NCBI GenBank assembly: GCA_949358305.1
Contig: OX442315.1
Location: 9,202,427-9,266,426, forward strand
Length of the DNA: 64,000 nt
Direction: 5' to 3'
Source of the DNA: Strigamia acuminata
Taxonomy: Eukaryota; Arthropoda; Chilopoda; Geophilomorpha; Linotaeniidae
Shown here: piece after piece, positions 2,188 to 61,932 of the stretch
How positions within the stretch are numbered: position 1 is the stretch's first letter
Layout: each line of letters opens with the position of its first letter
Notes under the pieces: generated by a model
Database searches by the model: none
What the model saw: only the letters and a program-made list of their open reading frames with translations
Told to the model about the DNA's origin: nothing
Position numbers and translations under genes: made by a program

Positions 2188-3169
2188 TGTGGTGATCTCA
2201 AAATATTTCACCAACTTAGAAGATAAAATTAATTGTCTTCTAATTAATTTGACTGTGGCACACGCCAAGTCAGATCATGTGACCGAGGGGAGAAATCCTC
2301 TCTAGGCACATATCACCCCAGGTTGTCCGGGGTGAAAACGGTTATTAGCCGTTATGGTGCAATATGGTGTAATAACCACTAGTTGCACCCATTTGAGCTA
2401 AGTGCGCAGGTTTTCTGCGCAATATTGAAGCGTGCTGGGCTCGCGTCTTGGCTCAAATCGGGACTCTTGACAAAAATACACAACCCACAACATCACTGCG
2501 ATATCTGCTCCGACAATACGTATTGACAGTGGACCGTGTAACCGTCAAGTTTCACCAGCTTGCTTTGTAACGAATTACAAAGCCAGCTATCCTGCTTGAA
2601 TTAGCCGTAGCTAATTCCAGCAATCGAGAAGAGAAGTTTCCCGACGATCGTGAACCATCGCCGTCGCTGTTGCGCGAACGACAGCCACCGCCATCGTACG
2701 AGAGCCGGACGCCTACAGCCGTCAACCACCGCCGCCGAGCCGTCGCACGAGCCGTAGAAGAAACCCACGAGAACCATCGTCTTCGACCATCGTTCGTGAG
2801 TTTGCCGAAAACGAAGACATTTGCCTTCGCTCAACAACATCTCGTTGTTTAAGCGCCATTTCTGACGCTTTGTAGCTTGCAACAGTCGTTGCAAGCCCTT
2901 CCTTTGTTTCATTGTTTCCCGCTCATTTTATTCTTGCGACTTGTCGCATATCGTGATATTCATAATCATTATTAATATATATATTGTAATTTAAACCGAA
3001 TAAATAATTGTGTGATTTTTATTACCATAATAAACTGCCGTTTTATTCCTATTTTCGTAAACTTAACCCTAGACAAGTTTCGGCCGCGATATAAGTCTTG
3101 TAAAGCATTCACCTGCGGTTTCGTGCTTATTTATTAGAAATAAGTGCGATAATAACCCGGATCGCAGCA
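2188..3169 (+). repeat. 5' LTR of Gypsy B
   Basis: It is a 982-bp direct repeat of 14011-14992, beginning TGTGGTGATCTC and ending GATCGCAGCA. Short ORFs on both strands around 2600-2910 recur unchanged in the other LTR and lack any recognisable domain. I treat them as LTR sequence, not genes. An AATAAA at about 3000 (14823 in the other copy) could be the polyadenylation signal. Confidence 0.93.
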
Positions 3170-3171
3170 CG

Positions 3172-3189
3172 TGGGGGCCCGGCCGGGAT
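3172..3189 (+). other. Primer binding site of Gypsy B (tRNA-Pro-like)
   Basis: TGGGGGCCCGGCCGGGAT starts 2 bp after the LTR. It differs at two positions from the complement of a typical eukaryotic tRNA-Pro 3' end (TGGGGGCTCGTCCGGGAT). The tRNA assignment is from knowledge of tRNA-Pro sequences, not from a search. Confidence 0.6.
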
Positions 3190-3280
3190 AGTCATTGTAT
3201 AACTTTGTTAGTTAAAATTTACCCGCCATTTTTATCTTGCTTATCTTTCTTCTCTATCCTTTCTAAATCCTCATTGAAAA

Positions 3281-6200: not shown

Positions 6201-6304
6201 GGCAAAAAGACTGCCCATCCTCTAAAAAGGACAAACCAGTGTCAACAGCTGAGTTTGAAAAAGCAGTCAAGATCATAACTGACATGTTTCGAAAAAACTT
6301 GTAG
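3281..6304 (+). CDS. gag: Gypsy B Gag, 1007 aa, with AT-hook-like N terminus, coiled coil and zinc knuckle
   Basis: The ATG at 3281 is the first long-frame start after the leader. Residues 8-17 (RPRGRPAKRR) resemble an AT-hook. Residues about 150-270 are Gln/Glu/Leu-rich with heptad-like spacing, a likely coiled coil. Residues about 400-570 are Ser/Arg/His-rich, then Gly/Asp/Pro-rich and disordered. Residues about 640-800 form the retrotransposon capsid-like helical domain (WDRV, DVKEWFRR, then a QRKGESLHSYMLR block as in Gypsy Gag). Residues about 965-978 are a C-X2-C-X4-H-X4-C knuckle for RNA binding. The frame ends at TAG 6302-6304, immediately after a -1 frameshift heptamer. At about twice normal Gypsy Gag length, the N-terminal half is an addition of unknown role. 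Confidence 0.9.
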   Translation: MATPSEKRPRGRPAKRRVAIDLPAVDQEVTESQELFEAMDQTANCNSAQLIVNEFTQALERQQPSPPSGQLDLNNPTGSGRSKSQNDDLNLRIQSSSAEHSLNSSPVQGAAQQDSENSNMEVSHSPVRVTMMDALREQARLEGVKVTSEMTVEQIHKAMVRKQSQKDVEIVRTSLQAEFERMHAEMQQQNAELKQQRANDHVKLLQLEQEKASWLITDEEQQQRLEQLNQAQKDLEIANENLRLANANLREANTNLMTAELTAPVRAREVIPSTSRNYENYAAEQAARAKRLAQRENEVFLAQQQSVIDAGQAAKSLSTAEQLLRADLAAQARENEILRADLLTVQENFAVVVQKVQDVCGEDNFAKPAPVLQKGASKSPELIDLTSAKPKVSRQSSWTDSDDSRSSRGSRNSHHSRKKRKRQPDPTEYHSPKVPQNSDRFFSNSDQLIGLLAKKNKEREKPHDRGRSHDNPREGSPKRDCHNDIRDGPRYRGNPPGGDPPGGDSSDGHGGGHSRDHNSNGNRGGRGPPNGDRRPPDGDDPPDPDPPPNPNHESASDTDSSRPSVRGRSRHRTRSRTQRPDFYTKDEIDQLLRQNAQQQRKNRRDKIILQKINEFTSDKWTHQTTDEKFIRWDRVIPHAYNGNWQAGSNLLLEIFELGKVHSFGCEGALAHLVPRILVGDVKEWFRRKDFTKWDDFVKQFMFKFGESSEDIKTLWRCLKQRKGESLHSYMLRAENLLGRMLHAVTDATADDQFRAGLTEYSKNILMMSDAPDPGKFSELNEFMEVNQLRIDEKYKAYLTDSERSAYLKREKRLAEQNNETFNGLKLLQPPSYEDFLDEVEGKSSKRESSKKDVKNPHSVPKLHANITGAETPSSEAEEAEEEEEAGDETLALLAKAAALLAKNNPVAGKWKPRMKPKNVSFDASKVNTERNSKSPAVSPERRSDARSRSASPAATKKKSPATDPCNLCKKLGHWQKDCPSSKKDKPVSTAEFEKAVKIITDMFRKNL
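6292..6298 (+). promoter_or_regulatory. -1 ribosomal frameshift heptamer A AAA AAC at the gag-pol junction
   Basis: In Gag frame the sequence is CGA AAA AAC TTG TAG. The heptamer A AAA AAC is a canonical X XXY YYZ slippery site, placed two codons before the Gag stop. The pol frame is exactly -1 relative to gag and is open from 6283. The arrangement predicts a Gag-Pol fusion. I did not identify the downstream stem-loop or pseudoknot. Confidence 0.8.
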
Positions 6305-8465
6305 ACGCAGATCCATCAGGTCTAGTGGACGCTGCGTCACCTCCGAAATCGGAATCAGAGAATGAAAATCTGAAGATAATGGAAGATGTTGAAGAAGTTA
6401 TTGATGAATTAATTCGTCAAACAGAACTAAAAGAAAAAGAATCTCTTGAGTTAACAAAGGAGATTGTCGGCGAAACTCCGACTGAAGAAGACACTTCCAA
6501 TATTAAAGATAAAGTCGAAGTTACAGATGATAGACCAAGCTCAGTTCCAGAGACACCTGGAATTGAGGAATGCATTAAGTTATTTGCAGCTACAACTCTT
6601 GATACCAATGAGTTATTAGACGAACTACCTTTGGAGCCTCCAATTACAGTTCCTCATAAATTGCGCAGGTTTGAGTGCAAAGTGGCTGGAATACCAAACA
6701 GCCAAGACCTTCCAACGTTAAAGTTAGAAACGTTAAAAGGTGTAATAACTGGTATGTTGGACTCAGGAGCAAATAAGAGCTTCCTAGCCACTTCAGTTAT
6801 TAATCAATTAGGTCTAGAAGAATATCTACGACCTATCGGACCTGGTGTCAGAGTCACGACGGCAAGTGAAGAAGTCACTCCAGATGGAACCATCCATCTT
6901 TCATTTCGATGGACACATGGCACGTTACGTCATCCGTTCATCGTAATACCAAATAAGTATCCAATGGTACTATTGGGTTGCGATTTTATGAATAAATTAA
7001 AAATCCAACCTAATCCGCAGACGATGTCTTGGAATTTTACGCAACCTGTGGATGCAGATTTACCCTACATTCCACAAGCGTTGCTGGAACGTTATTTGGA
7101 GAAAATAGAGGAACCCGATTCCTCATTTGTGACCTTTGCGAAAGCTTACGCTGCAAGTGTAACTCAAAGCAAAATTGATGAAGAGAATTTCATCCAAAAG
7201 TTAGTCGAAGAAGCTAACTTAAATTTGGAGCAATCCAAATTATTAGAAAAGATGTTATCTAAACATAAAAGGATTATTTCTAAAGATCCAGGTAAAACAC
7301 ACCTGGTTAAGCACAAAATTGAGCTTGACACGGAGAAACCCATCCGTGTCCCCTTTAAGAGCATAAACCCTCAAAAAAGGGAAATAATCAGACAACTTTG
7401 TCAAGACATGATTGACAAAGGCGTAGTCGTCAAAGCTGAAGGCGATTACGGAATGCGGCCAGTCCTAGTCATGCGACCAGGAAACGACCCACGCTTGTGC
7501 ATTGATTTCCGCCCCATCAATACACATACTAAGTACAACCCACCTCAAATGCCAACAATTGAGGAAATTCTGCGAGAAATCGGAGAATTCGAATGGGTCA
7601 GTACTATAGATCTGACCAAGGGATATTGGCAGATAGAATTGCGACCTGAAGACAGAGAAAAAACTGCCTTCTGGAGCCCAATGGGAAGACTAATGTTTTT
7701 AGTCATGCCTTTCGGATTAGTAAACGCACCAACTACTTTCCAAGAATTGATGGAAAAGGTTTTGGGTGACGTTTATAGAAAATTTGCATGGGCATATTTG
7801 GATGACATAATTGTTGTATCCAAATCGTTCGAAGAACACATTAAACATTTAGATATAGTGTTTAAAAAATTGGCAGAAGCTAATTTACATGCGCACCCTG
7901 GCAAGACGCATCTCTGTAGAAAGGAATTAATTTTTCTAGGCTACAAAGTAGGAGTAGAAGGACTTGCAGTAGACCCTAAAAAAGTCGCTGCAATTACGCA
8001 ATTTCCGGCTCCTACCAATCTTAAAGAATTACAAAGATTTCTAGGCATGGTGAATTTCTTTCACCGCCTAATCAAGAATTTGGCCACAGTGGCAGAACCA
8101 CTAAGGCCACTCTTGAAGAAAGATGCGGAGTTCGATTGGGAACTGCATCATCAGGCAGCATTCGACGCAATAAAAGACTTGCTTACGAATGCTGAAACAA
8201 TGAAGATGCCTGACTTGTACATGCCATTTATTGTTCATACTGACGCCAGTAAACAAGGGTTGGGTGCAGCCCTTACACAAAAGAAAATTGTGGATGGCCA
8301 AGAAGTCGAAATGCCATGCGTGTATGCAAGCAGAAGCTTGCAACCCGCTGAAAAGAATTATACTGTGACAGAATTAGAATGTCTCGCAGTAGTATGGGGA
8401 TTGCGCAAATTTCGCCCATATTTAGAGTACACTACATTCACTGTACAAACGGATCACCAAGCAGT
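6292..8465 (+). pseudogene. pol: Gypsy B Pol, protease-RT-RNase H part, cut by a MITE
   Basis: The frame is entered by -1 frameshifting and has no ATG of its own near the start. An acidic linker comes first. The retropepsin motif LDSGANKSF is encoded near 6757-6783, and an LLGCDF flap-side block near 6973. Reverse transcriptase follows with LCIDFRPIN, STIDLTKGYWQI, MPFGLVNAPTTFQ and YLDDIIV (about 7795-7815). RNase H shows HTDASKQGLGAAL near 8236 and stops in the TDHQA block at 8465, where a 408-bp element is inserted with a duplicated 8-bp target. The continuation, one frame over because of the insert length, starts at 8874. Function would be reverse transcription of the element. Confidence 0.9.
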
Positions 8466-8873
8466 CCAGAGAATAACATCGGGTACCCGTACCCGTAACC
8501 GTAACCGTACCCGCCCGTACCCGTAGGGTACAGGCGGGTACGGTTCTAGATCTCCCGCGACTCCCGGTTACGGGTCGGGTACGGGTACGTTTTTTGTACG
8601 TTTGCAACGTTTAGTTTTATAATAATAACGTAATAAATTGATTTATTTAACCAATTTGGTTTATTTTTATGATGATGTTTTGATCAGCCTACCGTAGTTC
8701 ATTGTAAAATCGCACCGCCATGAACAATGAACACGTAATCGCGGGTACGGGTAGGGTAGGGTAGGGGGATTCCGGGATAGCCCGGGTACGAGCGGGTACA
8801 AGTACGAAATTGTTTCGGTGACGGGTAACGGGCGGGTAACGGGTAAACTTTTTTCGCCAATGTTATTCTCTGC
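8466..8873 (+). mobile_element. 408-bp hAT-like MITE made largely of GGGTAC motifs
   Basis: The ends carry an inverted repeat (CAGAGAATAACAT at 8467-8479, ATGTTATTCTCTG at 8860-8872). The 8 bp before and after (CAAGCAGT 8458-8465, CAAGCACT 8874-8881) match at 7 of 8 positions and act as the target duplication. An 8-bp duplication and a CAGAG-type end fit the hAT superfamily. Both ends are filled with runs of CGGGTA and its complement; the centre is AT-rich. There is no coding capacity. The insert interrupts the RNase H block of Gypsy B, and removing it with one target copy leaves the flanking pol segments in a single frame. Confidence 0.85.
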
Positions 8874-10967
8874 CAAGCACTTAAGTGGTTGATGTCGTTA
8901 TCTGACCCGTCGGGCAGATTAGCTCGTTGGCAAATGGAGCTGATGGCGTATTCATTCGAAATACAGTACGTCAAAGGTCCGCTAAATGTAATAGCAGACG
9001 CATTGTCACGTGCACCTGTCAGCGCACCTGACGAACCAGAAGACGATGGCGATAATGATGATTTATTATCATATTGTCCATCTCCTTGCCGAAGTTGGCA
9101 AATGGGAAAATTGAACGAATTACCCAAGTCGATAATAATTAATGAAGACGATCAAGCATTAATTAATTTTTGTATTAATATGCATGATCCGTCAGGAACC
9201 CCTGACATCGAATTAAGAGCTATGATGGCTAAAAAATTCGAGCTGCCAACAACAAATGTTTTAATTAAAGCATTTGCAGCTAAAATTGCCAAACAATTAG
9301 AATGTGATCCTCCAACGAGAGATGACATTATTGCAGCGCAAAAAGCAGACAAATTTTGCCAACAAATTCGCAATTACTTGTTAAACAAGCAATATCCAAG
9401 TTACATAGTAACTCGTCTTCAAAGAAGAAATTTTGAAAGACACGCGAGTACTTATCTCATTGAAGAAGATATGTTACTCCATTATCATCCTACCTCCACC
9501 GATGAATTGGGAGAGGATGGTAGGGCACTTAAAGTTGTTGTGCCAAGAAAATTGATTTATAAAATCATTTGGTTGATGCACGGACATCCACTGTCCGGCC
9601 ACCCAAGCATTGCGAGGACAATGTATCGAACTCGAAGAGTTTATACCTGGAAAGGTATGAAACGTGATATTACACGTTTTATTCAGCATTGTCAAGGATG
9701 TCAGGCATGTAAGCCGAGATCGAAGACCGAAATTGAAGGCGCTCAAATTGGACCATTTGGACCATTTGACTGCCTCAGTGTGGATTTGTCTGGTCCCAAA
9801 CCAAGAACCAGAAAAAACAATACCCACATTTGCGTCATCGTAGATGTCGCTACACATTGGCCCGAATTATTTCCAATGTGTAATCCAACGGCAATAAAAG
9901 TTGCCAACACAATTTATCACTTATCAATAACTTTCGGATTTCCGAGACAAATCATAAGTGATAATGGACCACAATTTCGATCACAGGTCTATAAAGAATT
10001 TTGCAAAAAATTCGACATGTCGCGAACACCGACATCGATTTATCATCCACAAAGCAATCCTGTGGAGAGAACCAATCGAGATATTAAATATTTAGTTTCG
10101 ATTTATTTAGATATTCACGACCAATGGGATGAGTATCTACGCGAATTTGCATTCAGTTTGAGAACAACTGTAACAAGAGGCAGAGATTATTCTCCTGCTT
10201 TCTTAAATTTTTTCCGAGAATTAAGAATTCCTTGGGATCCAAGAATTCCGGAAGGAATTTTAGTCATTGATCCAAAAAATCCGCATTTATATGTTCAGAA
10301 ATTAGAAGCAATAATTGCAGAGACGTATCAGCATATGATGTCTCACGTCTTAGATTTAAGACGCCGTGTCGAAACTGAAAAATCAGATAAGAAATTCGAC
10401 AACTTCAGACAGAATGATTTAGTCTGGCGAGAGTCTCATATTCTCTCAAATGCCGCTAAAGGAATAGCAGCAGGCATTTCACCGAAAAGGAATGGGCCTT
10501 ATGTAATTGTCAAAAGGTTACAAGGAGGCGCCTTTCAACTTCGACGGCTGAGTGATAATAAAATTTATCCAGCTGTTCACGGCACTGAATTAATGCCGTA
10601 CTTTCCCGTTTTCAACCAAGAAATTTGGCTGGAAGGGGAGGAAGTGGGTCAAAAAACAAAAAATATTGTTAATACCTTGGATGATGTTGAATTATCCAAA
10701 ATTCCTGTCGAAAACACGGAATCGAGTGAAAAATCGAAACTCAAAAATAACGAAGTCGATGAAATAAACAAGCGACTTGAAAATGTTTCTCTTGATGAAA
10801 ATCTAGAAAAGGAAATGTTTTTAGAAAAAGAGAAAATTTCAAACAATGAAGAAAATAACTCATCTGACATTGGAGACGATGCTGATGACAATCTAAACAA
10901 GTTGGATTGTACTTCGCGAAAGTCAAAGTACAACTTGAGATCTCGCGTTCCGCGAGTCAAGACATAG
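8874..10967 (+). pseudogene. pol: Gypsy B Pol, end of RNase H and integrase, separated by the MITE
   Basis: The frame opens with the end of RNase H (QALKW, then SGRLARW and NVIADALSRAP). The integrase zinc-binding HHCC motif is encoded about 9577-9711 (HGHPLSGH, then CQGCQAC). The catalytic core has D in SVDLSGP (about 9780), D in SDNGPQF (about 9958) and E in NPVERTNRD (about 10060), giving a complete DDE set. A C-terminal domain with PYVIVKRL (about 10498) and LRRLSDNKIYPAVH follows, then an acidic Lys/Asn/Glu tail. The part is intact but detached from RT by the MITE, so this copy cannot make a full Pol. Confidence 0.9.
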
Positions 10968-11205
10968 CGTTGACTTTCACCTTTTGGGTTTACCCGAAAG
11001 ATCCGAGAGAGCAATCTCGTGACGTCATTCGTAGTAAATACTCGAATGACAACGTTCACAATGCGTTATAATTTGTGACGTCATTCGGTGTCACCGAAAC
11101 AAGTTTGTTGCTCCAATCAACGAACTTAGCCACTTTTCCGATAAGTTTTGAAGTGGATGCATCAACTCCGATACCGCACGACAGTTTTTCTTGATTCAGC
11201 AAACT

Positions 11206-11271
11206 GTAAGTAATTTTTCTGAAAGAAAAATTCGATAAATATATTTAACATAATTTATTAATTCTTTCTAG
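11206..11271 (+). other. Predicted leader intron upstream of the accessory gene of Gypsy B
   Basis: A consensus donor (CT|GTAAGT at 11206) and an acceptor preceded by a pyrimidine tract (TTCTTTCTAG ending 11271) bound 66 bp that would lie in the 5' UTR of the accessory transcript. The acceptor could equally receive a donor from the 5' leader of the genomic RNA, as for retroviral env messages. Confidence 0.5.
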
Positions 11272-11309
11272 CCGAAAGAATTTCTTTTTCCACGCGAAAA
11301 AGAAGGAGA

Positions 11310-13958
11310 ATGGCAGACGACGAAGTCAACCTCCATGTGGACGATGAAACGCCAATGGAAGGAGCCGGTAACGACGTCCAATTACCGTTACAAGAGAGGG
11401 TAAATTAATAAAATAGTTTTTACCTAGTGTTTCAGTCAGAAAAATTGAGTAATTTCACTTTTCCTGACTTCAAACACAAGCCGCTAAAAAATAAAAATGG
11501 CGGCTATAAAAGTCACGTGCTTCAAGCATGTGCGAAGGGAGTTGCCATGACAACCAACATCCCTTAGTGGCTCACAGCCACAAGCGCTAAGCTTAAAAAA
11601 TATTTCAAATAAGAAATTATTTGTTTATTTTTAAATAAACTAATTTATTTATTTATTTTTTTTCGAATATAGATCGAGAGGGATCGAGAGACGCCGTTTG
11701 CGCTCCCCGATCATGTGCCGACCCAGCACCCGCTGATTTTTCGAGCGGCGTTGCCCGAAAAAATCAGAAGACTGAAGACGGCAAACAACACGTGGTGGAA
11801 GTTGCGCCACGACTTCAGCAGATCGGCTCTGCAAGGATTCGGAGCAAGAGGCCGGTTCATCGAGCGCCTTCACGTCGACGGAGTTGACGAAATCGAGTGG
11901 ACGCTCGACGAGAGCCCCCCAGGACCGCTTGCAGCAGAATTGCTGCACAACCAGTGGCCAGTGACGCCACGAGAGCGTCACGAGCGCAGAAGAGCGCTAA
12001 AGAGTACCGGAATTAATTACGGTGCTCTCACCCAATTGAGGAAGAACCTCAAAACGACACAACGCGAAGTCGTGCAACGGTACCGCAAGTCCGTTCGTGA
12101 CGGGAACCCGCAATTTCCCGTCACACAAACCGAGCTCCACCAGTTGGCGCTCGCAGGGTGCTTCAACGATTTTCCGGGATTCTTCCCGTCGAAAGCACTC
12201 CGAGCTGCCGCAGTGCAGCTTCGCGTCGACGAAAATCGACAACTGGCTCAAGCACTCGAGGCAGAGGAGCAAGCGCGCTGCGCTCTCCCTTTTTATCGGG
12301 AAGATGAAATTCCGGCCCCAGCGGCCATCAATCCTCCGCCACAAGATGAGGATTTGAGGGTGGGGCAACTCCCTCCGCCGGTTCCAGTCCGACCGATGTT
12401 CCGCGAATCAAGCCGCGATCGAGAGGAACGACAGAGGCGATCGCGCCCGTATTCGACTGACGCACAGCCATCACGCCCGCAGTCGCGACGAGGACGGACA
12501 CCAGAGTCGTTTGGCTCGTCGTCTTCGCTGAGTTTCGAATCGGACTCCACAATTAAGTCCGCCCGAAGTAGCCGAACCGCCTCCACGTTCAAAGTGGACA
12601 ACCCGGCTACTCCATACGCCATGAGACGTGTTGTCGGTGATATCTCTCCCGACTGTAGCGTGCCAGTACCTGGACATGCTAGCCGCTTGCCCGAACATGG
12701 ATATGTTTCCCGCTTGCCGGCTGGAGTTAGCAACCTGCAACTCCGGCCATTTTTTAGTGAGTCATTCGGCCCACAATGGACCTGCTACGAGCAGCAACCC
12801 ATTAGAGCGCAGCAGGAAGTGCTCCAGAAGCTGGACGCATACCAAAGCGCCCAGATCGCCGAGTCGCAGAAGGACTGGCAGAGACTAGCTGAAAGGCTAG
12901 AGCTCTCCGACATCAATACCATTGATGATCCCCGTCTGATGGATTTTCAGCGTCAGCTAATTCCGGGGATGACTAGGGTGTTGTACCCTGGTGTTCTTCC
13001 TTCGCCAGGACAGGCGTTAGCGGCCATTACGTACCTTTGGACCGCGCCGATGGGCCTGTCGGAGAAGAAAGTCGAGCTGTGGTACCACCTCAGGCTCGAC
13101 CCGCCTACGATCTTAGCCGAGCTAATAAAGCAACTCGTAGCAAACGGTGAGACCGAAGAAGAGGCCGCCGTTCGGTTGCGAACCGAGTGGTCCTTTGCGA
13201 AGGCCACGGCGCGAATAGCCGGAAGACCACCGCTTCCAGTTACAAGCGCCACAGCAGCTGCGTCACTGGCTGTTTTCCAGTCGGCCCAAGAAGGCGCTGG
13301 ATGCTCGTTTTGGCAAGAGAACCCGAGAAGTTCTCCAACTCCTGCCGGAGTTCAACGGGAAGTCGAAACCCGTCAGCTCCCCGGTGTGGGTCGAGCGCAG
13401 GGACGAGGCGTCACACCCTCGTCAACCTCCGCACCCGCGTTGGTTTTCTTGGGCTCGCCGAGCCATTTCGACGATGCCACGACGGAAGACTCACGTCTAC
13501 CGCCGCCGCCGCCGCCAGCCAAGCCGGAGACGAAGGTCAGGCCGCTGAAGAAGGAGTCGGCTTTCAAGACCCTGATGCGCCTGTATCCGCACTTCTATTT
13601 GACGCCGGATACGCGAACACTGCTTAGCAACAACCACAAGTTGTCGAGGCAGGTGTTTATGTGGCTCGAAGACCACATTCGGGTGTTAAGCCCACCATCG
13701 GTGCTCCATGATCGACTCCTGAGAGCACGATTAGCGCCAGAGGATCCGATAGAGTTTGCGGCGCTAGGATTTTTCAACCGAGCGAACTCGGCAAGAATCA
13801 TCCAGGTTTGGCTTCATGTCAACCCTGGAATGGTCTCCGGACCAAACGCAGGTCGCGACCTGTGTACGGTTAACGAGCGGTCCAACCCGAGGGACGACAC
13901 CACGGATATGATGCGCCCGTTGACGCCTGAGCGAACTCAGAACATGGACGAATCATAA
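11310..13958 (+). CDS. Accessory gene downstream of pol in Gypsy B (two coding exons, about 790 aa, unknown function)
   Basis: Exon 1 is 11310-11399 (ATG, 30 codons, acidic). A donor AGG|GTAAAT at 11400 and an acceptor AATATAG ending 11672 bound a 273-bp AT-rich intron. Exon 2, 11673-13958, continues in phase 0, 14 codons before the first internal start-like codon, and stays open for about 760 codons. The product is an Arg/Trp/Leu-rich helical N-terminal part, a Ser/Arg/Pro-rich disordered middle, a second helical region, a polyproline stretch (about 13498-13520) and a helical C terminus. I see no signal peptide, membrane anchor, furin site or enzyme motif, so although it sits in the env position I do not call it env. 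GC content is clearly higher than in gag/pol. Both splice sites are predictions. I do not recognise the family. Confidence 0.65.
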
Positions 13959-13999
13959 ATTGGTTCGTTCATTTTCTCTCCATGTAAGATTCGTCTTAA

Positions 14000-14010
14000 A
14001 TGGGGGGATG
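14000..14010 (+). other. Polypurine tract of Gypsy B
   Basis: A G-rich tract (TGGGGGGATG) lies immediately before the 3' LTR, where plus-strand DNA synthesis would start. Confidence 0.75.
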
Positions 14011-14992
14011 TGTGATGATCTCAAAATATTTCACCAACTTAGAAGATAAAATTAATTGTCTTCTAATTAATTTGACTGTGGCACACGCCAAGTCAGATCA
14101 TGTGACCGAGGGGAGAAATCCTCTCTAGGCACATATCACCCCAGGTTGTCCGGGGTGAAAACGGTTATTAGCCGTTATGGTGCAATATGGTGTAATAACC
14201 ACTAGTTGCACCCATTTGAGCTAAGTGCGCAGGTTTTCTGCGCAATATTGAAGCGTGCTGGGCTCGCGTCTTGGCTCAAATCGGGACTCTTGACAAAAAT
14301 ACACAACCCACAACATCACTGCGATATCTGCTCCGACAATACGTATTGACAGTGGACCGTGTAACCGTCAAGTTTCACCAGCTTGCTTTGTAACGAATTA
14401 CAAAGCCAGCTATCCTGCTTGAATTAGCCGTAGCTAATTCCAGCAATCGAGAAGAGAAGTTTCCCGACGATCGTGAACCATCGCCGTCGCTGTTGCGCGA
14501 ACGACAGCCACCGCCATCGTACGAGAGCCGGACGCCTACAGCCGTCAACCACCGCCGCCGAGCCGTCGCACGAGCCGTAGAAGAAACCCACGAGAACCAT
14601 CGTCTTCGACCATCGTTCGTGAGTTTGCCGAAAACGAAGACATTTGCCTTCGCTCAACAACATCTCGTTGTTTAAGCGCCATTTCTGACGCTTTGTAGCT
14701 TGCAACAGTCGTTGCAAGCCCTTCCTTTGTTTCATTGTTTCCCGCTCATTTTATTCTTGCGACTTGTCGCATATCGTGATATTCATAATCATTATTAATA
14801 TATATATTGTAATTTAAACCGAATAAATAATTGTGTGATTTTTATTACCATAATAAACTGCCGTTTTATTCCTATTTTCGTAAACTTAACCCTAGACAAG
14901 TTTCGGCCGCGATATAAGTCTTGTAAAGCATTCACCTGCGGTTTCGTGCTTATTTATTAGAAATAAGTGCGATAATAACCCGGATCGCAGCA
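14011..14992 (+). repeat. 3' LTR of Gypsy B
   Basis: It is a 982-bp direct repeat of 2188-3169, starting TGTGATGATCTC and ending GCAGCA, followed by the second CAAC target copy at 14993-14996. Confidence 0.93.
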
Positions 14993-15438
14993 CAACATAA
15001 CTTTTAATTTGATCATAAGCTGGCGTATCAATATTTCTGCATAGATACACGGTCAACTTCCTCAACGGATTTCGCATTTCTAATAATTTCAAAATGGAAC
15101 TCAAATTAATCGAATCACACCCAGTCAATTCCAAAAACTTGAGATTTTGAAATGCATTCGACCCATCAAGCTGCGATACCAATTCATCATTAAATGTTTC
15201 ACAATTAGAAATATGTACTTCCTCCACATTCGGACACTGAAACAATAACGCGTGTAAATCAATATTAAGCAAAATCGAAATGATTTCCAAGCGACGTAGC
15301 TTCGTGAACAGAACAACATTGGCAGAGTATCGCAAATTGTCGGTTTCATCTAAAATCGTACACTCAATCAGTGTCAATTCCTCCAACTTTGGGCAGAAGC
15401 GACTAATTAGCCGAAGACTGACTAATCGAAGATCCAAC
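14993..15438 (-). pseudogene. LRR gene copy 1, C-terminal LRR segment (between two insertions)
   Basis: The minus strand encodes successive LRRs matching the intact copy: SLRLISRFCPKLEELTL, TKLRRLEI, CPNVEEVHIS, FQNLKFLELTGC, NPLRKLTVYLC. At the high-coordinate end the frame runs into the TIR of the 2-kb transposon (TSD ATCCAAC 15432-15438). At the low end it runs into the LTR of Gypsy B. The insertion length plus target copy (2019 bp) is a multiple of three, and no internal stop is evident. The gene was therefore broken by insertion and not by point decay. Confidence 0.88.
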
Positions 15439-15555
15439 CAAGGAGGTGAGAAGGAGACGTAACTCCTGCAGAACTTCCGGTACAATGCTTGTCTTCCCGG
15501 AAGTGATGTCATTCCCTCTCAATCCGCCATTTTCCAAACAGTAACATGCCGCGTG

Positions 15556-16964
15556 CTGCCTAAACACACAGCTAAAGCGGCCAAAACGCATTGTACCGTG
15601 GATGAAATCATGCAATCCATGGAAAAATTAATTATTTTTAAACGTCTAAGGTGTAAAATTTAAAAGATATTAGTGAGTTTGCGGTTGCCAATTGTTCCTT
15701 ATAATTATGAGTTACAAGCTCATAATTATAATTATAATTCCTTCTTGAAATAGGCACTTGCGGTACAATAAACATTTTATAAATTATACTTATAAATACC
15801 ATGTGAACAGTACAAATCTCTTGCATGTAATGGTAGAACAAATCCATATGCAAAAGAAAATGAAAATCTGTAGTTTTACTAATTTGACAGTTTTCAGACA
15901 TGAAATTGTCTTCCAGTTCATTTATTTGCTTACCTGGAATGATTTTAGTTGTTTCTATCCTTCGATGGCAGAAAGAAATTGTGATTGAGGCTGAATGTTG
16001 AAACAGGTCAGGCAGCCATTTTGAATTTCCATCAGCACTATCAGCGCCATTTGCAATAGTGGGAGGAGCTTCAAATAGTGTTAAGCGATCTGATTGGCTC
16101 CCTTATTTTACAAAATAGTGTAAAAGTTGAGGAGTTACGTTATGTTATAAGTCCAATTTTATAATTATGAGCTTGTAACTCATAATTATAAGGAACAATT
16201 GGCAACCGCAAACTCACTATTGAAAGACACGTCGCTACTGGGAGTCTAGTGAGTGGTGCGTACAAAACCGACTACGGTCAAACGAACGAGTTGGGAACTG
16301 GTGCAGAAGAAAGTCGAGGTAATTCGTACGTAATAACTTAAATTTAAAACAAAATTAAACCAACAGACGATTAATAGGAGTTTGAAAAGATGTAAGGTAG
16401 AAGACCACGTATTCTAGTCGTCCAAAGTTTGACAAAATGGCCAAGACCGCGGTGCTAAAGTGATAGCGACCGGTTTTGTCGATTTGGGATTTGATGTCGG
16501 GGATTTGATGTCGAGGCGGATTTCAGGTTTTAAAAATAATAATTGAGAAAAATTTAAACATTAATTTAAATATTTAAATTTAAGACACCGGCCGAATTTG
16601 CTCAACAAGCGATCGACGCTGATGTTCACGTCGTGGGAATCAGTTCGCTAGCAGCCGGACACAGAACGCTAGTACCGGAATTAGCAAAAGCATTAGAAGC
16701 TAGACGCTAGATTAGAAGCTAGATCGTAAATTAATATTAAAAAAGAAAAAAAACGCAATGAAAATAACAATTTTTGTTTTATTTAGGGACATTCTTATAG
16801 TTTGCGTCAACGTTATTCCGCCACAGGATTACGACCACTTACACAAAATCGGCAAGCTCGGCGGGTGCGCAATTTTCGGCCCAGGAACAAAAATTCCACT
16901 CCCAGCGATGAGAGTGCTAGATTTTGTATCGTCCTCGTTAAATAAAAAATCCCAAGCCATTTGA
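15556..16964 (+). pseudogene. MUT-like: Methylmalonyl-CoA mutase, 3' exons with introns, captured and decayed
   Basis: Five blocks match the C-terminal cobalamin-binding part of mitochondrial methylmalonyl-CoA mutase (methylmalonyl-CoA to succinyl-CoA). They are 15583-15630 (HCTVDEIMQSMEK), 16222-16318 (VSGAYKTDYGQ), 16378-16495 (GRRPRILV, DRGAKVIATGFVDLGFDV), 16585-16710 ([20 protein letters not shown]) and 16787-16964 (VIPPQDYDHL, FGPGTKIP, to a TGA). Introns with AG|GT...AG borders remain, for example 16319-16377. Damage is clear: the GQDGH segment, which includes the cobalt-ligating histidine, is missing near 16440; a stop follows EFEKM near 16393; a frame change lies in block 2; and a MITE lies between blocks 1 and 2. 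Retained introns show DNA-level capture and not retroposition. Confidence 0.88.
15672..16218. mobile_element. 0.55-kb MITE with about 55-bp TIRs inside the captured mutase gene
   Basis: The left end (from AGTGAGTTTGCGGTTGCC at 15672) recurs inverted at the right end (to 16218), including the internal TTATGAGTTACAAGCTCATAA palindrome region. Flanks share ATT, a candidate 3-bp target duplication. No coding capacity. A related end occurs near 30733 (GAGTTTGCGG). Confidence 0.8.
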
Positions 16965-17450
16965 GAGTGAACTACGTGTTTTTGTTTTAATATAATTGAT
17001 CGTGTACATACTTTTGAGATTTATTGTACACAATACTTTGAAAAAATTAACGAAATAAAATTAGCAAAGCATGCAAACACTACACCCAGTTCCAAAGTGT
17101 TACTAAAGATGTCTTGGATGGAATGCAAACAGCATTTCCGACAATAAATACTTTTACAATCCCGAATGTCGCAATGTTATTTTTGTATGTAAGATTGAAG
17201 GCACGATATGCTGGGTTTGGGAAATGGAATAAATTCCACACTAACGACTGTCACTTTTGCACAGTCCATAGCTTTGCATCTTTTCCATTTGCATTTACCG
17301 GCCTACCGCGCTTGGGAAGCATCGCTGTGTATGGAAAATGGCGGAAACAATCCCACAATGCACTGCGCAAATCGCGCATGTGCAGAAGATTATTGCGTAC
17401 GCATGGTGACACCATTTTTGCAGGAGTTACGTCTCCTTCTCACCTCCTTG

Positions 17451-18308
17451 ATCCAACAGATGCAGAACAGTCAATCTTTGTAATCCAACGCTCAGCACTT
17501 CGGGTTCGCACGCGTGTAGTGCCAATAAACTGGTCAATTTGGGGAAAACGGTGAAGAGAAAAGTGAGGTGTTCAGAGGTATTCAGAAAGGTGAGGTTTTG
17601 GCTAGTATTCAGAACACGGTTCATTTGTTCTACGGAATAAGAGCGCAACGGCATCGATTGTGAGATTTGTGACTGTCGTTTTGTCATGGCAAACAAGTTG
17701 TGGTCGGTGTGAAATACCTTTAAAACGGGCAATCGGTTTAAAACGTTGAAACATCCCTCGCAAGTCACACTAGTCTGTTCTACAGACAAACACTCTAGTT
17801 TTACGCAATTGGCTAAAGAAAAGAGGCCAGCGTCGGTGATCTTTGTGCACTCATTTAAACCGAGATGCGTCAATTGTCGACAATTGCGACCGATTTCAGC
17901 TGCGACCTGGTCCGTGCATTCTGTTATCCGATTTAAGTTTAAGCGTTGAATTTGCGGCAAATGGGACAGCAGTTGGATTATTAGTCGAGATGGGGGATTA
18001 TACCAGTAGGTTGACAAGTCTAAGTCGATGAGGTTTTTGCACAATTGGCCAATTTTGTCGATCAAACGATTCGTGGGTAAATCGAACATGCATAATTCCG
18101 ACAACCTTGTCGTGCCGGAATGAATGAAAATGTTTGATTTTAAACATTCGAAGCGAACACGTTTGTTTTCGCGTTGACACAATCTTTCATATATGGTCTG
18201 TATAAAGACGGGAGGGAAAGGTTGTTCAGCTAATTGGGCTTGCATCGCGTCGAAATCAGTCACAATCTTACTTAAACACAGTTCTTGGAGATCTTTCTGG
18301 TACGGCAT
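17451..18308 (-). pseudogene. LRR gene copy 1, N-terminal part
   Basis: The minus-strand start at 18308 (MPYQKDLQELCLSKI) matches the start of the intact copy. The frame is also open upstream to 18380, so a start further upstream is possible. It encodes LRRs with the CC-type pattern (NCRQLTHLGL, C, ITDAGLFSLANCVKLECLSV) and runs to GLQRLTVL, then into the transposon TIR. An internal segment near 17570-17600 (TSQNLTFLNTSEHLTFLFTV) is a short local duplication relative to other copies. With 14993-15438 and 2140-2187 it makes one gene in three pieces. Likely a protein-interaction LRR of the F-box/AMN1 kind, but no F-box is evident. Confidence 0.88.
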
Positions 18309-18429
18309 GTTGATTAAACAGTTGCAAATTCGAATGTTTAAAATTGTGTGAACAAGCCGTTTAAGTGTATACGCTGGCAACGTACGGCGAACGTTGTTAC
18401 ATGTTCGTTGTGCGCGTCATGAAATATTT

Positions 18430-18690
18430 AAAAATTAACAGAAAATCGATTTTGTATATAAGCAAATTATTATTTTTTTTGATTAATAAATTAATTACGG
18501 CGTGTGTGGTAGTCTTAATCGGATTTTCAGATCTGTGGAACTTAAAAACGGAATTTCTGCGATACTTTCTACAGATACGTTATAATTATTGTTTTTCCTT
18601 TTTCTTTCTCTTTCTCTTTGGCACGTGTGGCGGACCAAAATAAACAAGTCTGAGACAAATATGCTTGAAATCAGAAATGAAGTCATCAAC
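18430..18690 (-). repeat. Module spacer with remnant of the lysine-tail exon
   Basis: The sequence around GATCTGTGGAACTTAAAAACGG (18530-18552) and the Lys/Glu-rich remnant near 18590-18635 recur at 21395-21490, 29230-29260, 38570-38720 and 43880-44010. This marks the downstream end of each duplicated two-gene module. The coding content here is too eroded to call. Confidence 0.6.
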
Positions 18691-19180
18691 TTAGATTACT
18701 GCTGCTTGGATAGATGCAGAAAATGTATTAGTAAGCACTCGTACCACTAGAAGACATCTGCCAGAATCAGAAAATAGTTTCAAACCGTGTAAATCAAAAG
18801 TAATACTTTATCTCCGAACGAGAGTGTATAAGCAAAGACTTGATAATGGTGCAAAATTCATTAAAAATGGAATTTAAACCAATGGAAAGATGTTATTTGG
18901 TGCGACCAATCTCGATTGTTCATTGGATTTCGTGATGGAGGTAGAATAGTGTGGAGAAAAAAAGTCCGAAGAACTTCTTCCAGATTGTGTGAAAAAACCA
19001 GTTAAATTTGCTTTTGGGAAAATAATCTGGGGTTGCTTTTGTACTAATGGCATTGGTGAAATTCTGATTGTGGATAGTAATATGAATGCTACAAAGTATG
19101 AAAACATGCTTGAAACACAACTTCTCCTTCCAATTTCATCAATATTCAAAACTAGTAAAAAAATGCAGAAAGAGTTGGAT
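18690..19180 (+). pseudogene. Tc1/mariner-family transposase relic
   Basis: Translation gives a degraded Tc1-type transposase: TRTTRRHLPESENSFKPCKS (helix-turn-helix end), an eroded KMLFGATNLDCS block where the W-K/S-LFSDE catalytic motif would stand, then ELLPDCVKKPVKFAFGKIIW, GCFCTNGIGEILIVD and MNATKYENMLE. Stop codons occur near 18879 and 18949. The expected second Asp stands in the ILIVD block; the first is lost. Immobile remnant. Confidence 0.75.
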
Positions 19181-19410
19181 TAGAAATCATTAGCTTGTAG
19201 GTTGTTTTAAGATTTGGGATATGATTAATCTCAAGAGAGGAAATGTTGATTATTTAATAATGCTGCTCTTTAATCATAGATGATGGTGCGACACGCTAAT
19301 CTCTCAACCAATGATCGTTAACCAATCAACGAATGCTACAGAACAAAACAGAAGATTTTCATCGCAGTCTACCAAGGTAAAAAAGTACTTCTTTTTTCAA
19401 TCAGCAAATT

Positions 19411-19498
19411 CCATATTTCTTCGAATTAAAGTCGCGGCTTTTTGCCACGACTTCTAATCGAGGGCGACTTTAATTTGAAGAAATACAGTATTTCAAAA
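19411..19498. repeat. Short foldback element, copies at 30102-30200 and 39150
   Basis: TTTCTTCGAATTAAAGTCGC is followed by its imperfect inverted copy GCGACTTTAATTTGAAGAAA within 90 bp. A second complete copy is near 30102-30200 and a half copy near 39148-39170. Resembles a very small MITE; no coding. Confidence 0.6.
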
Positions 19499-19599
19499 GT
19501 ATTTCGTTGAAAATTGTGTAATTGAAAATATCAATAAAAACACGTCTTCATAGTGACCCAGCATCCATTTTATTTCATTTTTTTACACTACATTAAAAT

Positions 19600-19690
19600 T
19601 ATTCTTTTTCTTTGCTGCATTTCTTTTTGGCAAGTTTGGATTTGCCATCTTTAAATGCATTTGATTGATAAAAACTTGTAATATAATTAT
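19600..19690 (-). pseudogene. Lysine-rich C-terminal exon fragment
   Basis: The minus strand reads AFKDGKSKLAKKKCSKEKE then a stop, closely resembling the tail of the lysine-tail gene at 40830-41990 (DPFKDKKAAKLAKEKKEEKE). The rest of the gene is not recognisable here. A plus-strand counterpart lies near 29945-30000. Confidence 0.6.
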
Positions 19691-19838
19691 GAATAATATT
19701 TCATTTATTGTGTTGCAGCGAAGTTGAGGGATTAACCATTCAAAGTTGACAGCATTTTTGACAGGATTCCAGATGAATTAGAAATATAGTAAACATGTTG
19801 GGACGTAAAATTTAAAATACTGTAAACTATCAATCCAA

Positions 19839-21158
19839 TCACACGGGGTCATAGCTAACCTGTAAATCCAAGTTGTTGCATTCAACATAACTTTTAATTT
19901 TATCAAAAGCTGGCGTATCAATATTTCTACATAGTTGCAGAACCAACTTCTTCAACGGATTTCGCATTTTCAATAATTTCAAAATGGAACGCAAATTAAT
20001 GGAATCACATCCACGCAGTTTAAAAAACTTGAGATTTTGAAATGCATTCGACCCAACAAGCTTCGATACCAATTCATCATTAAATGATTCACACCAAGAA
20101 ATATGTACTTCCTCCACATTCGGACACTGCAAGAATAACGCGTGTAAATCAACATCAAGATGAATTGAATTGATTTCCAAGCGACGTAGCTTCGTGAACA
20201 GAACAACGGCAGAGTCTCGCAAATTATCGGTTTCATCTAAAATCGTACACTGAACCAGTGCCAATTCCTCCAACTTTGGGCAGAAGCGACTAATTAGTCG
20301 AAGACTGTCTAAGCTAAGACTCGACAGTTCCAGAACAGTCAATCGTTGTAATCCCACGCTCATCACTTCGGGTTCGCACGCGTGTAGTGCCACTAGAGTA
20401 TCCTTTTTAACACGTAAATTGGTCAATTTAGGGAAAGCGGTGAAGAGAAAGGTGATGTCTTGACTACCATTGAGAACAAGGTTCATTTGTTCTATGGAAT
20501 AAGTGCGCAACGGCATCGATTGTGATTGTCGTTTTATCATGGCAAACAAGTTGTGGCCGGTGTCAAATACCTTTAAAACGGGCAGTCGGTTTAAAATGCT
20601 GAAACATCCCTCGCACGTCACACTAGTGTCGAATACACTCAAACACTCCAGTTTTACGCAAGTGGCTAAAGAAAAGAGCCCAGTGTCGGTGAAATGTATG
20701 CAGTGAGTTAAATCGAGATGCGTCAATTGTCGACAATTGCGACCGATTTCAGCCGCGACCTCGTCCGTGCATTCTGGTTCGCTATTAAAGTGTAAGCGTT
20801 GAATTTGTGGCAAATGGGACAGCAGTTTGATTATTAGTCGAGATGGAGGAGCACACGTGGTCGACAAGTCTAAGTTGATGAGGTTTTTGCACAATTGGCC
20901 AATTCTGTCGAACAAACGATCCATGGGTAAATCGAACATGTAAAATTCTCGCAACGATTTCGTGCCGGAATGAATGAAAATGTTTGATTTCAAACGTCTT
21001 TCGAGTTCATACTTGTATCCACGTTGACAAAACCTTTCATATATGGTCCGGATAAAGATGGAAGGGAAAGGTCGTTGAGTTAGATGGGCTTGCATCACGT
21101 CGAAATCAGTTATAATCTTACTTAAACACAGTTCTTGCAGATTTTTCTGGTACGGCAT
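19839..21158 (-). CDS. LRR protein, 439 aa, intact copy (LRR copy 2)
   Basis: Start ATG at 21158 (MPYQKNLQELCLSKI), stop before the conserved 3' flank. Residues 1-60 are a helical LQELCL...PFPSIFIRTIYERF region. From about residue 85 there are about ten LRRs of the cysteine-containing type (LPQIQRLHF; NCRQLTHLDLTHC; FTDTGLFSLATC; KLECLSV; FPKLTNLRV; GLQRLTVLEL; CPKLEELAL; TKLRRLEI; CPNVEEVHIS; FQNLKFFKL). This pattern is typical of FBXL/AMN1-like adaptors that bind substrates for ubiquitination, but no F-box is seen, so the role is inference. No signal peptide or membrane segment. It is the only copy in the window without a disabling change, the likely template for the others. An additional upstream exon cannot be excluded. 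Confidence 0.85.
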   Translation of the reverse strand: MPYQKNLQELCLSKIITDFDVMQAHLTQRPFPSIFIRTIYERFCQRGYKYELERRLKSNIFIHSGTKSLREFYMFDLPMDRLFDRIGQLCKNLINLDLSTTCAPPSRLIIKLLSHLPQIQRLHFNSEPECTDEVAAEIGRNCRQLTHLDLTHCIHFTDTGLFSLATCVKLECLSVFDTSVTCEGCFSILNRLPVLKVFDTGHNLFAMIKRQSQSMPLRTYSIEQMNLVLNGSQDITFLFTAFPKLTNLRVKKDTLVALHACEPEVMSVGLQRLTVLELSSLSLDSLRLISRFCPKLEELALVQCTILDETDNLRDSAVVLFTKLRRLEINSIHLDVDLHALFLQCPNVEEVHISWCESFNDELVSKLVGSNAFQNLKFFKLRGCDSINLRSILKLLKMRNPLKKLVLQLCRNIDTPAFDKIKSYVECNNLDLQVSYDPV

Positions 21159-21279
21159 GTTGATTGATTAAGCAGTTGCGAATTCGAATGTTTAAAATTT
21201 GAATAAACAAGCCGTTTAAATATATACGTTGGCAAACGTATGGCGAACGTTGTTAGAAGTCCGTGCTGTGTGTCAAGAG

Positions 21280-21713
21280 ATTTTTAAAAATTTAAAGAAA
21301 AATCGATTTTATAATCACCAAATTTTTATATTTTTGTTTAATAAATTAATAACGGTGTGTGTGTGTATTTTTTTATTGGATTTTCAGATCTGTGGAACTT
21401 AAAAACGGAATTTTTGTGATAGTTTTTACAGATACATTATAATTATTGTTTTTCCGTTTTTGTTCTCTTTCTCTTTGACAAGTTTGGCGGTTTTTTTTAT
21501 CCTTAAACGGACCTTGCATTATATATCAGTCACAAGTGTGTTGTTGGTTTGTAGTTGAATTCAAGAGTGTGCCAAAACTCCAAATTCGAATAATAGCCGC
21601 GGCTACATACGTTCAATGAACGTAACATTGACATATCGGCCACTATTTAAAATAAGAACAGCCCTTGATTAAGAGCCGCGGTTAAAAGTGCAAGTTTGTA
21701 GAGAACTCTTCCA
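21280..21713. other. Module spacer, no gene seen
   Basis: It contains the shared GATCTGTGGAACTTAAAAACGG sequence (21388-21410) and an eroded lysine-tail exon start near 21460-21520 (reverse of AKLAKE-like codons). Nothing further is recognisable. Confidence 0.5.
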
Positions 21714-22162
21714 GATTTTAATACTCCGTAATTTAATGTGGGCTAAACGATTGACTACACTCTGGCCAACCTCAAGAGTGCACCTCTTTTCCATTGGCCA
21801 AGCCATTTCACTTGTGTAGGTATGTACACAAAAGTAGACCAAAATACATGTTGAGTGCTTTCCTGACAAAGCAACCAATAAACTGCACAAACTAAGCAAA
21901 CATGTATTTTGAAACAAGAACAGCATAAAACATTATTTCATGAATTGAAAATAAATTTTATTATACAAAACAAATAAATTAACATCATTTCAAATAATAC
22001 AATAATCAAACAAATTTAAAAAAGACAAAACTACTTTTCCTGCTGGTAGAAACCACAGTTGGAAGTAATCAGGCTTGGCCAATGGGAAAGAGGTGCACTC
22101 TTGTGGTTGGCCAGAGTGTAGTCAATCGTTTAGCCCACATTAAATTACAGAGTATTAAAATA
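21714..22162. mobile_element. About 450-bp foldback element with about 90-bp inverted arms
   Basis: The left arm 21714-21805 (containing TTTAATGTGGGCTAAACGAT and CACTCTGGCCAACC) recurs inverted at about 22073-22162. The central 260 bp is non-coding and AT-rich. Outer ends read ATTTTAATACTC and GAGTATTAAAAT. No clear target duplication. Confidence 0.7.
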
Positions 22163-22487
22163 GTGTCTGTCTGTATGAACTTACATCGGTAAATATTAGA
22201 CCTGATTGCCTGCACTTGGCCAATGTTAAATAAATTAGTCTTACTACGTTGTTCTATTTCTAATGAAAGTGATGATATTACTAAACTTTTATTGCAAAAC
22301 TTTCGTGAATTGCGTGTAGTTTGTGAAAATAAAGTAAAGTAGCTGTAGGTTGTGTCGCTGTGCAATGTGTCGCTGGGATATCAATACAATACAATACAAT
22401 ATCAATACAAACACGTCTTCAGTCACCCAGAATCAATTTTATTTCATTTTCTACACGTAAAATTAAAAATACTGTAAATTATCACTA

Positions 22488-23622
22488 CTAACTCACGGGG
22501 TCATAGCTAACCTGTAAATCCAAGTTGTTACATTCAACGTAACTTTTGATTTTATAATAAGCTGGCGTATCAATATTTCTACATCGTTCCAGGGTTAACT
22601 TCCTCAACGGATTACGCATTTTCAATAATTTCAAAATGGAACTCAAATTAATCGAATGACACCCATGCAGATACAAAACCTTGAGTTTTTGAAATACATT
22701 CGACCCAACAAGCTTCGATACCAATTCATCATTAAATGATTCACACCAAGAAATATGTACTTCCTCCACATTCGGACACTGCAAGAATAACGCGTGTAAA
22801 TCAACAGCGCGAGACAACGAATTTATTTTCAAGCGACGTAGATTCGTGAACAGAACAACGCCAGAATCTTTCAAATTATCGGTTTTTTCTAAAATCGTAC
22901 ACTCACTCAGAGTCAATTCTTCCAACTTTGGGCAGAAGCGACTAATCAGTCGAAGACTGACTAATCGAAGATACAACAGATCCAAAACAGTCAATCTTTG
23001 TAACCCCACGCTCAGCACTTCGGGTTCGCACGCGTGTAGTGCCACTACAGTGTCCTTTTTAACACGTAAATTGGTCAATTTGGGAAAAACCGTGAAGAGA
23101 AGGGTCAGGTCTTGGCTAGTATTCAGATCACGGTTCATTTGTTCTATGGAATAAGTGCGCAACGGCATCGATTGCGATTGTCGTTTTATCATGGCAAACA
23201 AGTAGTGGTCGGTGTGAAATACCTTTAAAATGGGCAATCGGTTTAAAGTGCTGAAACATCCCTCGGACGTCACACGAGTATCGTATACACTCAAACACTC
23301 AAGTTTAACGCAAGTTGTTAAAGAAAAGAGCCCAGTGTCGGTGATGTTTTTGCAGCCATTTAATTTGAGATGCGTCAATTGTCGACAATTGCGACCGATT
23401 TCAGCGGCGACCTGGTCCGTACATTCTGGTGCCCTACTAAAGTTTAAGCGTTGAATTTGCCGCAAATGGGACAGCAGTTTGATTATTAGTCGAGGTGGGG
23501 GAACATACGAGGTCGACAAGTCTAAGTTGTTGAGGTTTTTGCACAATTGGCCAATTCTGTTGAAAGAAATTAGTCATAATCTTACTTAAACACAGTTCTT
23601 GCAGATTTTTCTGGTACGGCAT
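22488..23622 (-). pseudogene. LRR gene copy 3, internal deletion
   Basis: The start region (MPYQKNLQELCLSKIM, ATG 23622) is present but about 70 codons are missing between KIMTNF and GQLCKNLNNLDLS near 23565, with a frame change. From 23546 the frame is open to 22488 and encodes all later LRRs, ending with the usual ECNNLDLQVSYDP tail. LRR spacing is as in the intact copy. Unless translation starts at the internal Met near 23546 (352 aa), the gene is disabled. Confidence 0.82.
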
Positions 23623-23772
23623 GTTGATTAAGCAGTTATTGCAAATTGAATGTTTAAAATTTGTATGAACAGCATGTTCATACAAATATATACGTTGGTA
23701 AATATATACGTTGGTAACGTATGGCGAACGTTGTTAGAGGTTCGTGCTGCGCGTCAAAAGATTTTTAAAAAT

Positions 23773-23978
23773 TGTTGTGTATTTAAACTATTTGATTGTT
23801 ACAGTACAATGATTGACATGTGTAATACAAATTGATTGTTTATTGCGGTTGCCTTGGCAGCCGTTCTGAGAATAAATCAGTATGTGCAAATGAGTGAATA
23901 AGTGTACATGTGTTGTCTTGCCGTCCCGTTGGGACAGGCTTATTTTAGGAGATGATCTGTTTGGCTTGGAATGCTAAA
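23773..23978 (+). repeat. 5' LTR of Gypsy C
   Basis: A 206-bp direct repeat of 28931-29136, starting TGTTGTGTATTTAAAC. It has an AATAAA near 23870 that may be the polyadenylation signal. Confidence 0.9.
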
Positions 23979-24144
23979 GTGGCGCAGTTGACCAGGCATA
24001 CAGCCTGCGCGGTTGGGGATTTCGGCAAAATCAAGGACATTAATTAAAGAACAAACGAGCAGTTTGCAAGACGAAAAACGGACGTAACCGTTGCATTTGG
24101 AACGTCGAACGTTCGATCGTATTCCATCTTGACCAGCCGACACA

Positions 24145-38345: not shown

Positions 38346-38459
38346 GTTGATTAAGCAGTTATTGCGAATTGGAATGTTCAAAATTACTTTAAAATTTCTT
38401 TAAAAATTCTGTATATGTGCTGGCAACGTACGGCGAACATTGTTACATGTTCGCACTGC

Positions 38460-40780: not shown

Positions 40781-40829
40781 AATGCTCAAACTGTGCTTTC
40801 TATTGGGAATAGCCTGGATGCTACATTAA

Positions 40830-61873: not shown

Positions 61874-61932
61874 CCATGATTGAGCAAGGTACAGGTGACA
61901 ATTAATAAAATATTATCAACACACCTACAATT

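Follow-up and report, generated by a model that had tools for sequence, protein, structure and literature searches.

A non-autonomous transposon, very probably of the P superfamily, with methylmalonyl-CoA mutase gene DNA in place of its transposase interior in the centipede Strigamia acuminata

We analysed a stretch of 64,000 nucleotides from Strigamia acuminata (assembly GCA_949358305.1, contig OX442315.1, positions 9,202,427 to 9,266,426), hereafter called the window. One of a group of related minus-strand genes in the window is interrupted by an element that carries mutase DNA between terminal inverted repeats (TIRs; Table 1). With the element present, the frame of this gene consisted of stop-to-stop stretches of 329 and 208 codons. 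Upon removal of the element and one target site duplication (TSD), it became a single 501-codon stretch from stop to stop, of which ~33 codons are LTR sequence. The paralog at 22488-23573 has the unoccupied site, with ATACAAC present once. The break in a coding frame described in an earlier note on this DNA is therefore real, but the LRR label that the note gave to the gene is weak. Pfam gave no match for the upstream part, two LRR models for the downstream part (both below the curated cut-off), and LRR_4 and LRR_6 for two paralogs (below curated cut-offs). Related LRR-like genes and fragments lie at 15000-24000 and 38200-44000 of the window, and pieces of them share 80-89% identity at the DNA level.

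The 3' end of the interrupted gene holds a second insertion, a 12.8-kb LTR retrotransposon at 2188-14993 (983-bp LTRs, 99.9% identical; polymerase- and integrase-like ORFs, recognised by eye). The tail of the LRR-like gene (VECHNLDLQV...) persists below position 2188. Because of this second insertion, the harm done to the gene by the cargo element is uncertain, and the gene may already have been damaged before the cargo element landed.

Table 1. Features of the mutase-carrying element and the interrupted gene (window positions)
Feature	Position	Strand	Remark
LRR-like gene, downstream part, up to LTR retrotransposon	14994..15431	-	
Left TSD ATCCAAC	15432..15438	.	flanks match over exactly 7 bases
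Whole P-superfamily element with mutase cargo	15439..17450	.	2012 bp
Left 32-bp TIR	15439..15470	+	
Retained P-element end, 124 bp	15439..15562	.	corresponds to the end beyond the transposase ORF 3' end in transposase-bearing copies
Junction filler between P end and mutase DNA, about 11-12 bp	15563..15574	.	limits set by eye
Captured mutase DNA, part 1	15575..15649	+	92% to L038:4661-4587
Nested element, 549 bp, 61-bp perfect TIRs	15671..16219	.	inserted within captured DNA
Captured mutase DNA, part 2	16225..17204	+	89% to L038:4541-3577
Retained P-element 5' end with remnant of first transposase (THAP) exon	17214..17450	-	start codon 17322-17320
Right 32-bp TIR	17419..17450	-	
Right TSD ATCCAAC	17451..17457	.	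flanks match over exactly 7 bases
LRR-like gene, upstream part (open, stop to stop)	17458..18416	-	

The TIRs (15439-15470 and 17419-17450) were identical at 32 of 32 bases and the ATCCAAC duplication measured exactly 7 bp on both sides, as the earlier note had reported. The note had placed the cargo at 15556-16964. Mutase exons are present there, but the homology extends further (15575-17204), and 15671-16219 is a separate nested element. Once the nested element and the target that it duplicated are subtracted, 1462 bp remain. Part 1 of the captured DNA comprises the final codons of one mutase exon and the beginning of the next intron. Part 2 comprises four more exons, the intervening introns, the stop codon TGA at 16962-16964, AATAAA and 3' flank.

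Both ends of the element resembled those of related elements elsewhere in the genome (C and L numbers are our handles for contigs and loci). The retained left end was 90% identical to a cargo-free end at C8:13743669 (L045) and 75% identical over ~110 bp to the transposase-bearing element L046. The last ~237 bp of the element matched the other end of L046, at 71% over 138 bp and then, closer to the interior, in an alignment with gaps. The earlier note had seen no transposase inside the element. Some transposase sequence is nevertheless left, as the minus-strand stretch between 17322 and 17214 was similar to the first transposase exon. This remnant reads MLPKRGRPVNANGKDAK in the cargo element against MLPRIGRPVNPTGKGTK, with frameshifts and small deletions between this part and the FIPFPKP codons. 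It was recovered by tblastn in 3 of the 3 other full copies of the element (E 1.9e-4), and DNA alignment placed the cargo copies on the FIPFPKP codons of the transposase.

The mutase DNA runs in the opposite orientation to the transposase, and a short filler lies at each junction. The left filler was an identical stretch of 11 bases in 6/6 cargo copies. Neither inner TIRs nor inner TSDs were seen at the mutase junctions. By eye, neither junction showed microhomology; the hexamer GCCGCC is present in the P ends of L044 and L045 and also in the donor close to the left junction, but not at the join. Short microhomology is common in the Pack-TIRs described by Tan et al. (PMC8277862). Scans of the window for Rfam families (at gathering cut-offs) and for tRNAs (bacterial setting) gave no match.

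Apart from the cargo copies, we found this mutase DNA at one place in the genome, a methylmalonyl-CoA mutase gene on C4 (L038), with the parental copy at C4:13637576-13638540 and the rest of the mutase gene around it. The donor exons that we located with a guide protein, beyond the N-terminal leader, were open. Pfam assigned mutase or B12-binding models to 7/7 donor ORF pieces, three of them below the curated cut-off. The donor mutase was 91% identical to that of Strigamia maritima, and the next match was 79% identical. When we searched the genome with the 2.2 kb upstream in the donor, we recovered the gene itself, 72 bp at the left side of the cargo in six copies, and one short 88% match on C10.

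In the donor, the captured DNA forms one uninterrupted stretch (L038:4661-3577) of about 1.08 kb, extending from part of one exon through later exons and introns and the stop codon to ~250 bp past the stop. In a copy that lacks the nested element, the cargo was 87.6% identical to the donor over 1117 aligned columns. The homology was collinear and spanned the introns at 89-92%, as the alignment proposed in the earlier note was meant to show, and its claim of capture from genomic DNA stood, with exons, introns and TGA in the same order as in the intact gene. A processed (retro)copy was ruled out, because introns are present and collinear with the donor.

We found four full-length copies of the cargo element, the window copy on C3 and copies at C1:28625228-28626689, C1:62170559-62171997 and C8:3631758-3633219 (98-100% identity). 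Pairwise, they differed by 1-4 substitutions in 1439-1462 compared bases, counts from which we excluded the nested element and the 23 bp deleted in one copy. Each has its own TSD (ATCCAAC in the window; GACACAC, GTATAGC and GTCTGAC), and these copies moved as a unit. The left 122 bp of the element gave at least 26 genome matches, of which four were full-length and 100% identical.

Two older, incomplete cargo copies, L039 on C5 and L044 on C8, share the left junction of the full copies. In the left part they differed from the full copies at 7/202 and 13/211 bases, respectively, and the second mutase part of L039 was ~6% different. The first 5' splice site is kept in L039 and L044 and lost in the full copies; a His codon is kept in L039 and lost in the full copies. 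Because the older copies keep features that the full copies lack, the mobile lineage decayed after capture.

The nested element was missing from the three other full cargo copies. Its likely target duplication is the 3-bp ATT (by eye), and at least 40 full-length copies at 97-100% identity, the window copy included, were found in the genome (214 candidates). This small, non-autonomous element has thus multiplied in a recent burst. In L039 we observed a separate insert of ~8.4 kb (L039:1109-9496; ends TG...CA, ATAT flanks, by eye), within a few bases of the position of the nested element in the window copy.

We searched the 237.5-Mb genome with a 26-base TIR pattern, allowing up to two mismatches. 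The pattern matched 44 places and a reversed control pattern none, so the matches are not due to chance. This search, which the earlier note had proposed, yielded both other copies and transposase-bearing relatives. Neither observation that the note had named as counting against capture was made: the TIR has other copies, and the mutase arrangement was not seen at an ancestral locus lacking the LRR-like gene, since the donor lies on C4 and the two parts of the frame join up once the element is removed. By coordinates, 12 of the 44 places are single ends and the others form 16 pairs, of which four enclose mutase cargo, two enclose transposase and ten are 1325-1355 bp long. The TSD was exactly 7 bp in 14/14 fetched pairs (of 16), with a tendency towards RTNNNAC (T at position 2 in 10/14, A at position 6 in 12/14, C at position 7 in 11/14).

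In the transposase-bearing element L046 (5431 bp), one ORF encodes THAP and another, of 643 codons, encodes TNP-like RNase H and GTP-binding-insertion domains. Pfam matches were above cut-off for THAP (PF05485, E 2.6e-5), RNaseH_N (PF21787, E 3e-31) and GBD (PF21788, E 5.8e-17); PF21789 was below its cut-off. The second transposase-bearing copy, L058 (7330 bp), was 95% identical to L046 and has extra sequence. The 643-residue ORF gave at least 71 genome matches, with L046 and L058 at 100 and 96% (69/150 candidates scored); the other matches were more distant and include fragments at 64-80%. Scoring of the 7995 candidates with the most shared words in a protein collection gave at least 60 transposase relatives, all with PF21787. 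The best identity among the matches listed was 40%, and one listed relative is named DNA transposase THAP9 by its source. These results assign the family to the P superfamily.

L046 and L058 have nearly the same TIR as the cargo element, and their end sequence is 70-75% identical to it. Among the TIR relatives in the genome, we found no transposase-bearing element with ends close to those of the cargo subfamily. Because the ends of L046 and L058 match at 70-75%, the cargo element may have been derived from, or mobilised by, a different element that has perhaps been lost. The 1325-1355-bp relatives share ~125-135 bp of each end with L046 (89-90% among the matches listed). In L047, which is of this type, the interior is A+T-rich and repetitive, and L051, L054, L055 and L057 matched it at 98-100% end to end among the matches listed. 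The eight fetched relatives of this size (of ten) gave no match to the cargo interior. We looked at 5 of the 12 single TIR ends: L039 and L044 carry cargo, L048 and L049 are of the 1.3-kb type, and the fifth is L059. The 0.78 kb beside the L059 end (L059:26-801; C8:4763525) gave no match to the cargo, the transposase element or the 1.3-kb family at E 1e-15.

P-type ends on both sides, a transposase start on one side and mutase exons and introns between them suggest replacement, and the first-exon remnant kept by the cargo element identifies the replaced part as the transposase interior. The element is thus very probably a non-autonomous P-superfamily DNA transposon in which ~1.08 kb from the 3' end of the host methylmalonyl-CoA mutase gene has replaced the transposase interior. 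Repair of a double-strand gap in a P element would have been interrupted, and synthesis would have switched to the mutase gene as template. End joining would then have closed the gap and left the ~10-bp fillers. The chimera would have been moved in trans by a P-superfamily transposase and amplified, and the window copy would have landed in the LRR-like gene and split its frame. We infer the gap-repair step from the anatomy of the element and from published P-element work; the mobiliser was probably a P-superfamily transposase.

Fork stalling and template switching (FoSTeST) within a P element, with immediate transposition, is a serious alternative to repair of an excision gap, and we give it a somewhat less than even chance. 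The chimera is multicopy, the donor is on C4 whereas the six copies are on C1, C3, C5 and C8, and no cargo-bearing copy lies beside the donor gene. Tan et al. tie this pattern to FoSTeST (PMC8277862). Gap repair, however, leaves the same structure, and nothing here tells the two models apart.

We compared the cargo and the donor by sequence class, with approximate exon limits. Differences amounted to 50/566 in exons, 22/246 in introns and 14/252 past the stop, and to 6.9, 9.0 and 10.6% at codon positions 1, 2 and 3. This pattern is close to the one expected if the copy was made from DNA and then left unconstrained; constraint acting solely on the donor would account for the slight excess at position 3. 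The cargo is most likely without coding function and decaying like a pseudogene, as judged from these differences. That it is an expressed, selected gene module, such as a small B12-binding protein, is very unlikely. Its last exon is open for 82 codons in 3/4 full copies (83 in the fourth, after the 23-bp deletion), and 6 of the 7 splice-site or poly(A) patterns looked for were the same as in the donor. Yet other exons have stops and frameshifts, one 5' splice site is lost, and codon positions differ little in rate. In the full copies the codon for the His of the donor motif DGHDRG, the cobalamin ligand, has become Gln.

The P 5' end with its start codon points into the cargo, and transcription from there would be antisense to the mutase exons. 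The exon stretches are ~91% identical to the donor, the basis for considering that the four near-identical copies could supply, from mobile loci, antisense or small RNAs directed at the host mutase gene. We regard such a role as improbable, though somewhat less so than a coding one.

Mutator-type elements have TSDs of about 9-11 bp. The earlier note had compared the element to the Pack-MULEs of plants; the behaviour fits, since a TIR element with gene fragments is what Pack-MULEs are known for, but the superfamily is P, given the 7-bp TSD and the P-type transposase. The chance that the ends nevertheless come from a Mutator-like element is slight in the extreme. Drosophila Ssk-FB4 has been interpreted as a Pack-MULE, with 9-10-bp TSDs (PMC8277862), against the 7 bp of every fetched pair here. 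Moreover, both longer elements with the same TIR that we scanned encode a P-type transposase, and a P-type first-exon piece lies within the cargo element itself. The idea that two separate TIR elements flank a mutase pseudogene and were moved or duplicated together is a general possibility alone and has a next to negligible probability, since the junctions are identical in the four full copies and a distinct TSD flanks the outer TIRs of each copy.

The earlier note had expected an animal example to be notable. The element is a clear, young, multicopy member of the P superfamily, but it is not a new kind, as gene-carrying TIR elements are already documented in animals (PMC8277862, PMC2572040). 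Tan et al. (2021) describe Pack-TIRs in animals, and their survey of 100 reference genomes assigns 323/370 to hAT or TcMariner, with none found in insects, four multicopy and a median captured length of 224 bp (PMC8277862). In the present element, likewise, TIR ends enclose a copied non-TE segment whose parental copy can be identified, and the TSDs differ among its copies, as in multicopy cases such as the Ssk-FB4 family in Drosophila populations. It differs in being of the P superfamily, in a centipede, multicopy, and in holding ~1.08 kb with several exons and introns. A literature search on gene capture and P elements, at the level of titles and abstract beginnings, showed no natural P-superfamily Pack-TIR among the papers listed. 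We do not claim priority for a first such element, as the 47/370 Pack-TIRs outside hAT and TcMariner may include P-superfamily ones.

The superfamily has TSDs of 7-8 bp (PMC4168063), and elements with the present TIR combine a 7-bp TSD with THAP and a P/THAP9-type RNase H transposase. Drosophila Galileo has mostly 7-bp TSDs with the consensus GTATTAC or GTANTAC (PMC4168063). Galileo and the present family share a THAP plus RNase-H-type transposase and 7-bp TSDs, here with the RTNNNAC tendency; Galileo has long TIRs, whereas the cargo element has a perfect 32-bp TIR and host gene DNA inside. Turmoil-1 of C. elegans is also an animal transposon with protein-coding host fragments (PMC2572040). 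In Turmoil-1 they lie in its inverted repeats, whereas here they lie between the ends and replace the transposase interior.

Artificially activated Drosophila P elements also captured other DNA, with gap filling in one of two studies (as cited in PMC8277862). Those captures were experimental, whereas this one is natural and was later amplified. It is very probably a young, well-resolved natural gene-fragment capture by a P-superfamily transposon in a myriapod, for which a single assembly contains the donor together with both full and older cargo copies and the relatives that bear a transposase. In this natural multicopy case, gap filling and fork switching could be compared by tracing the loci in other Strigamia genomes. 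The comparison is apt because capture by gap filling has been shown experimentally in P elements, in the work that PMC8277862 cites.

We made two further observations. L046:6843-7833 (minus strand) and the matching part of L058 contain extra open frames that lie opposite to the transposase and converge on it. These can be read as one spliced gene and are 97 and 95% alike between L046 and L058. They gave no Pfam match and no protein-collection relative at E <= 0.001 (642 candidates); at other places in the genome they matched weakly three times. In the window, a direct repeat of 1140 bp (51546-52685 and 60735-61874; 100% identical, starts 9.2 kb apart) is perhaps the LTR pair of another recent element.
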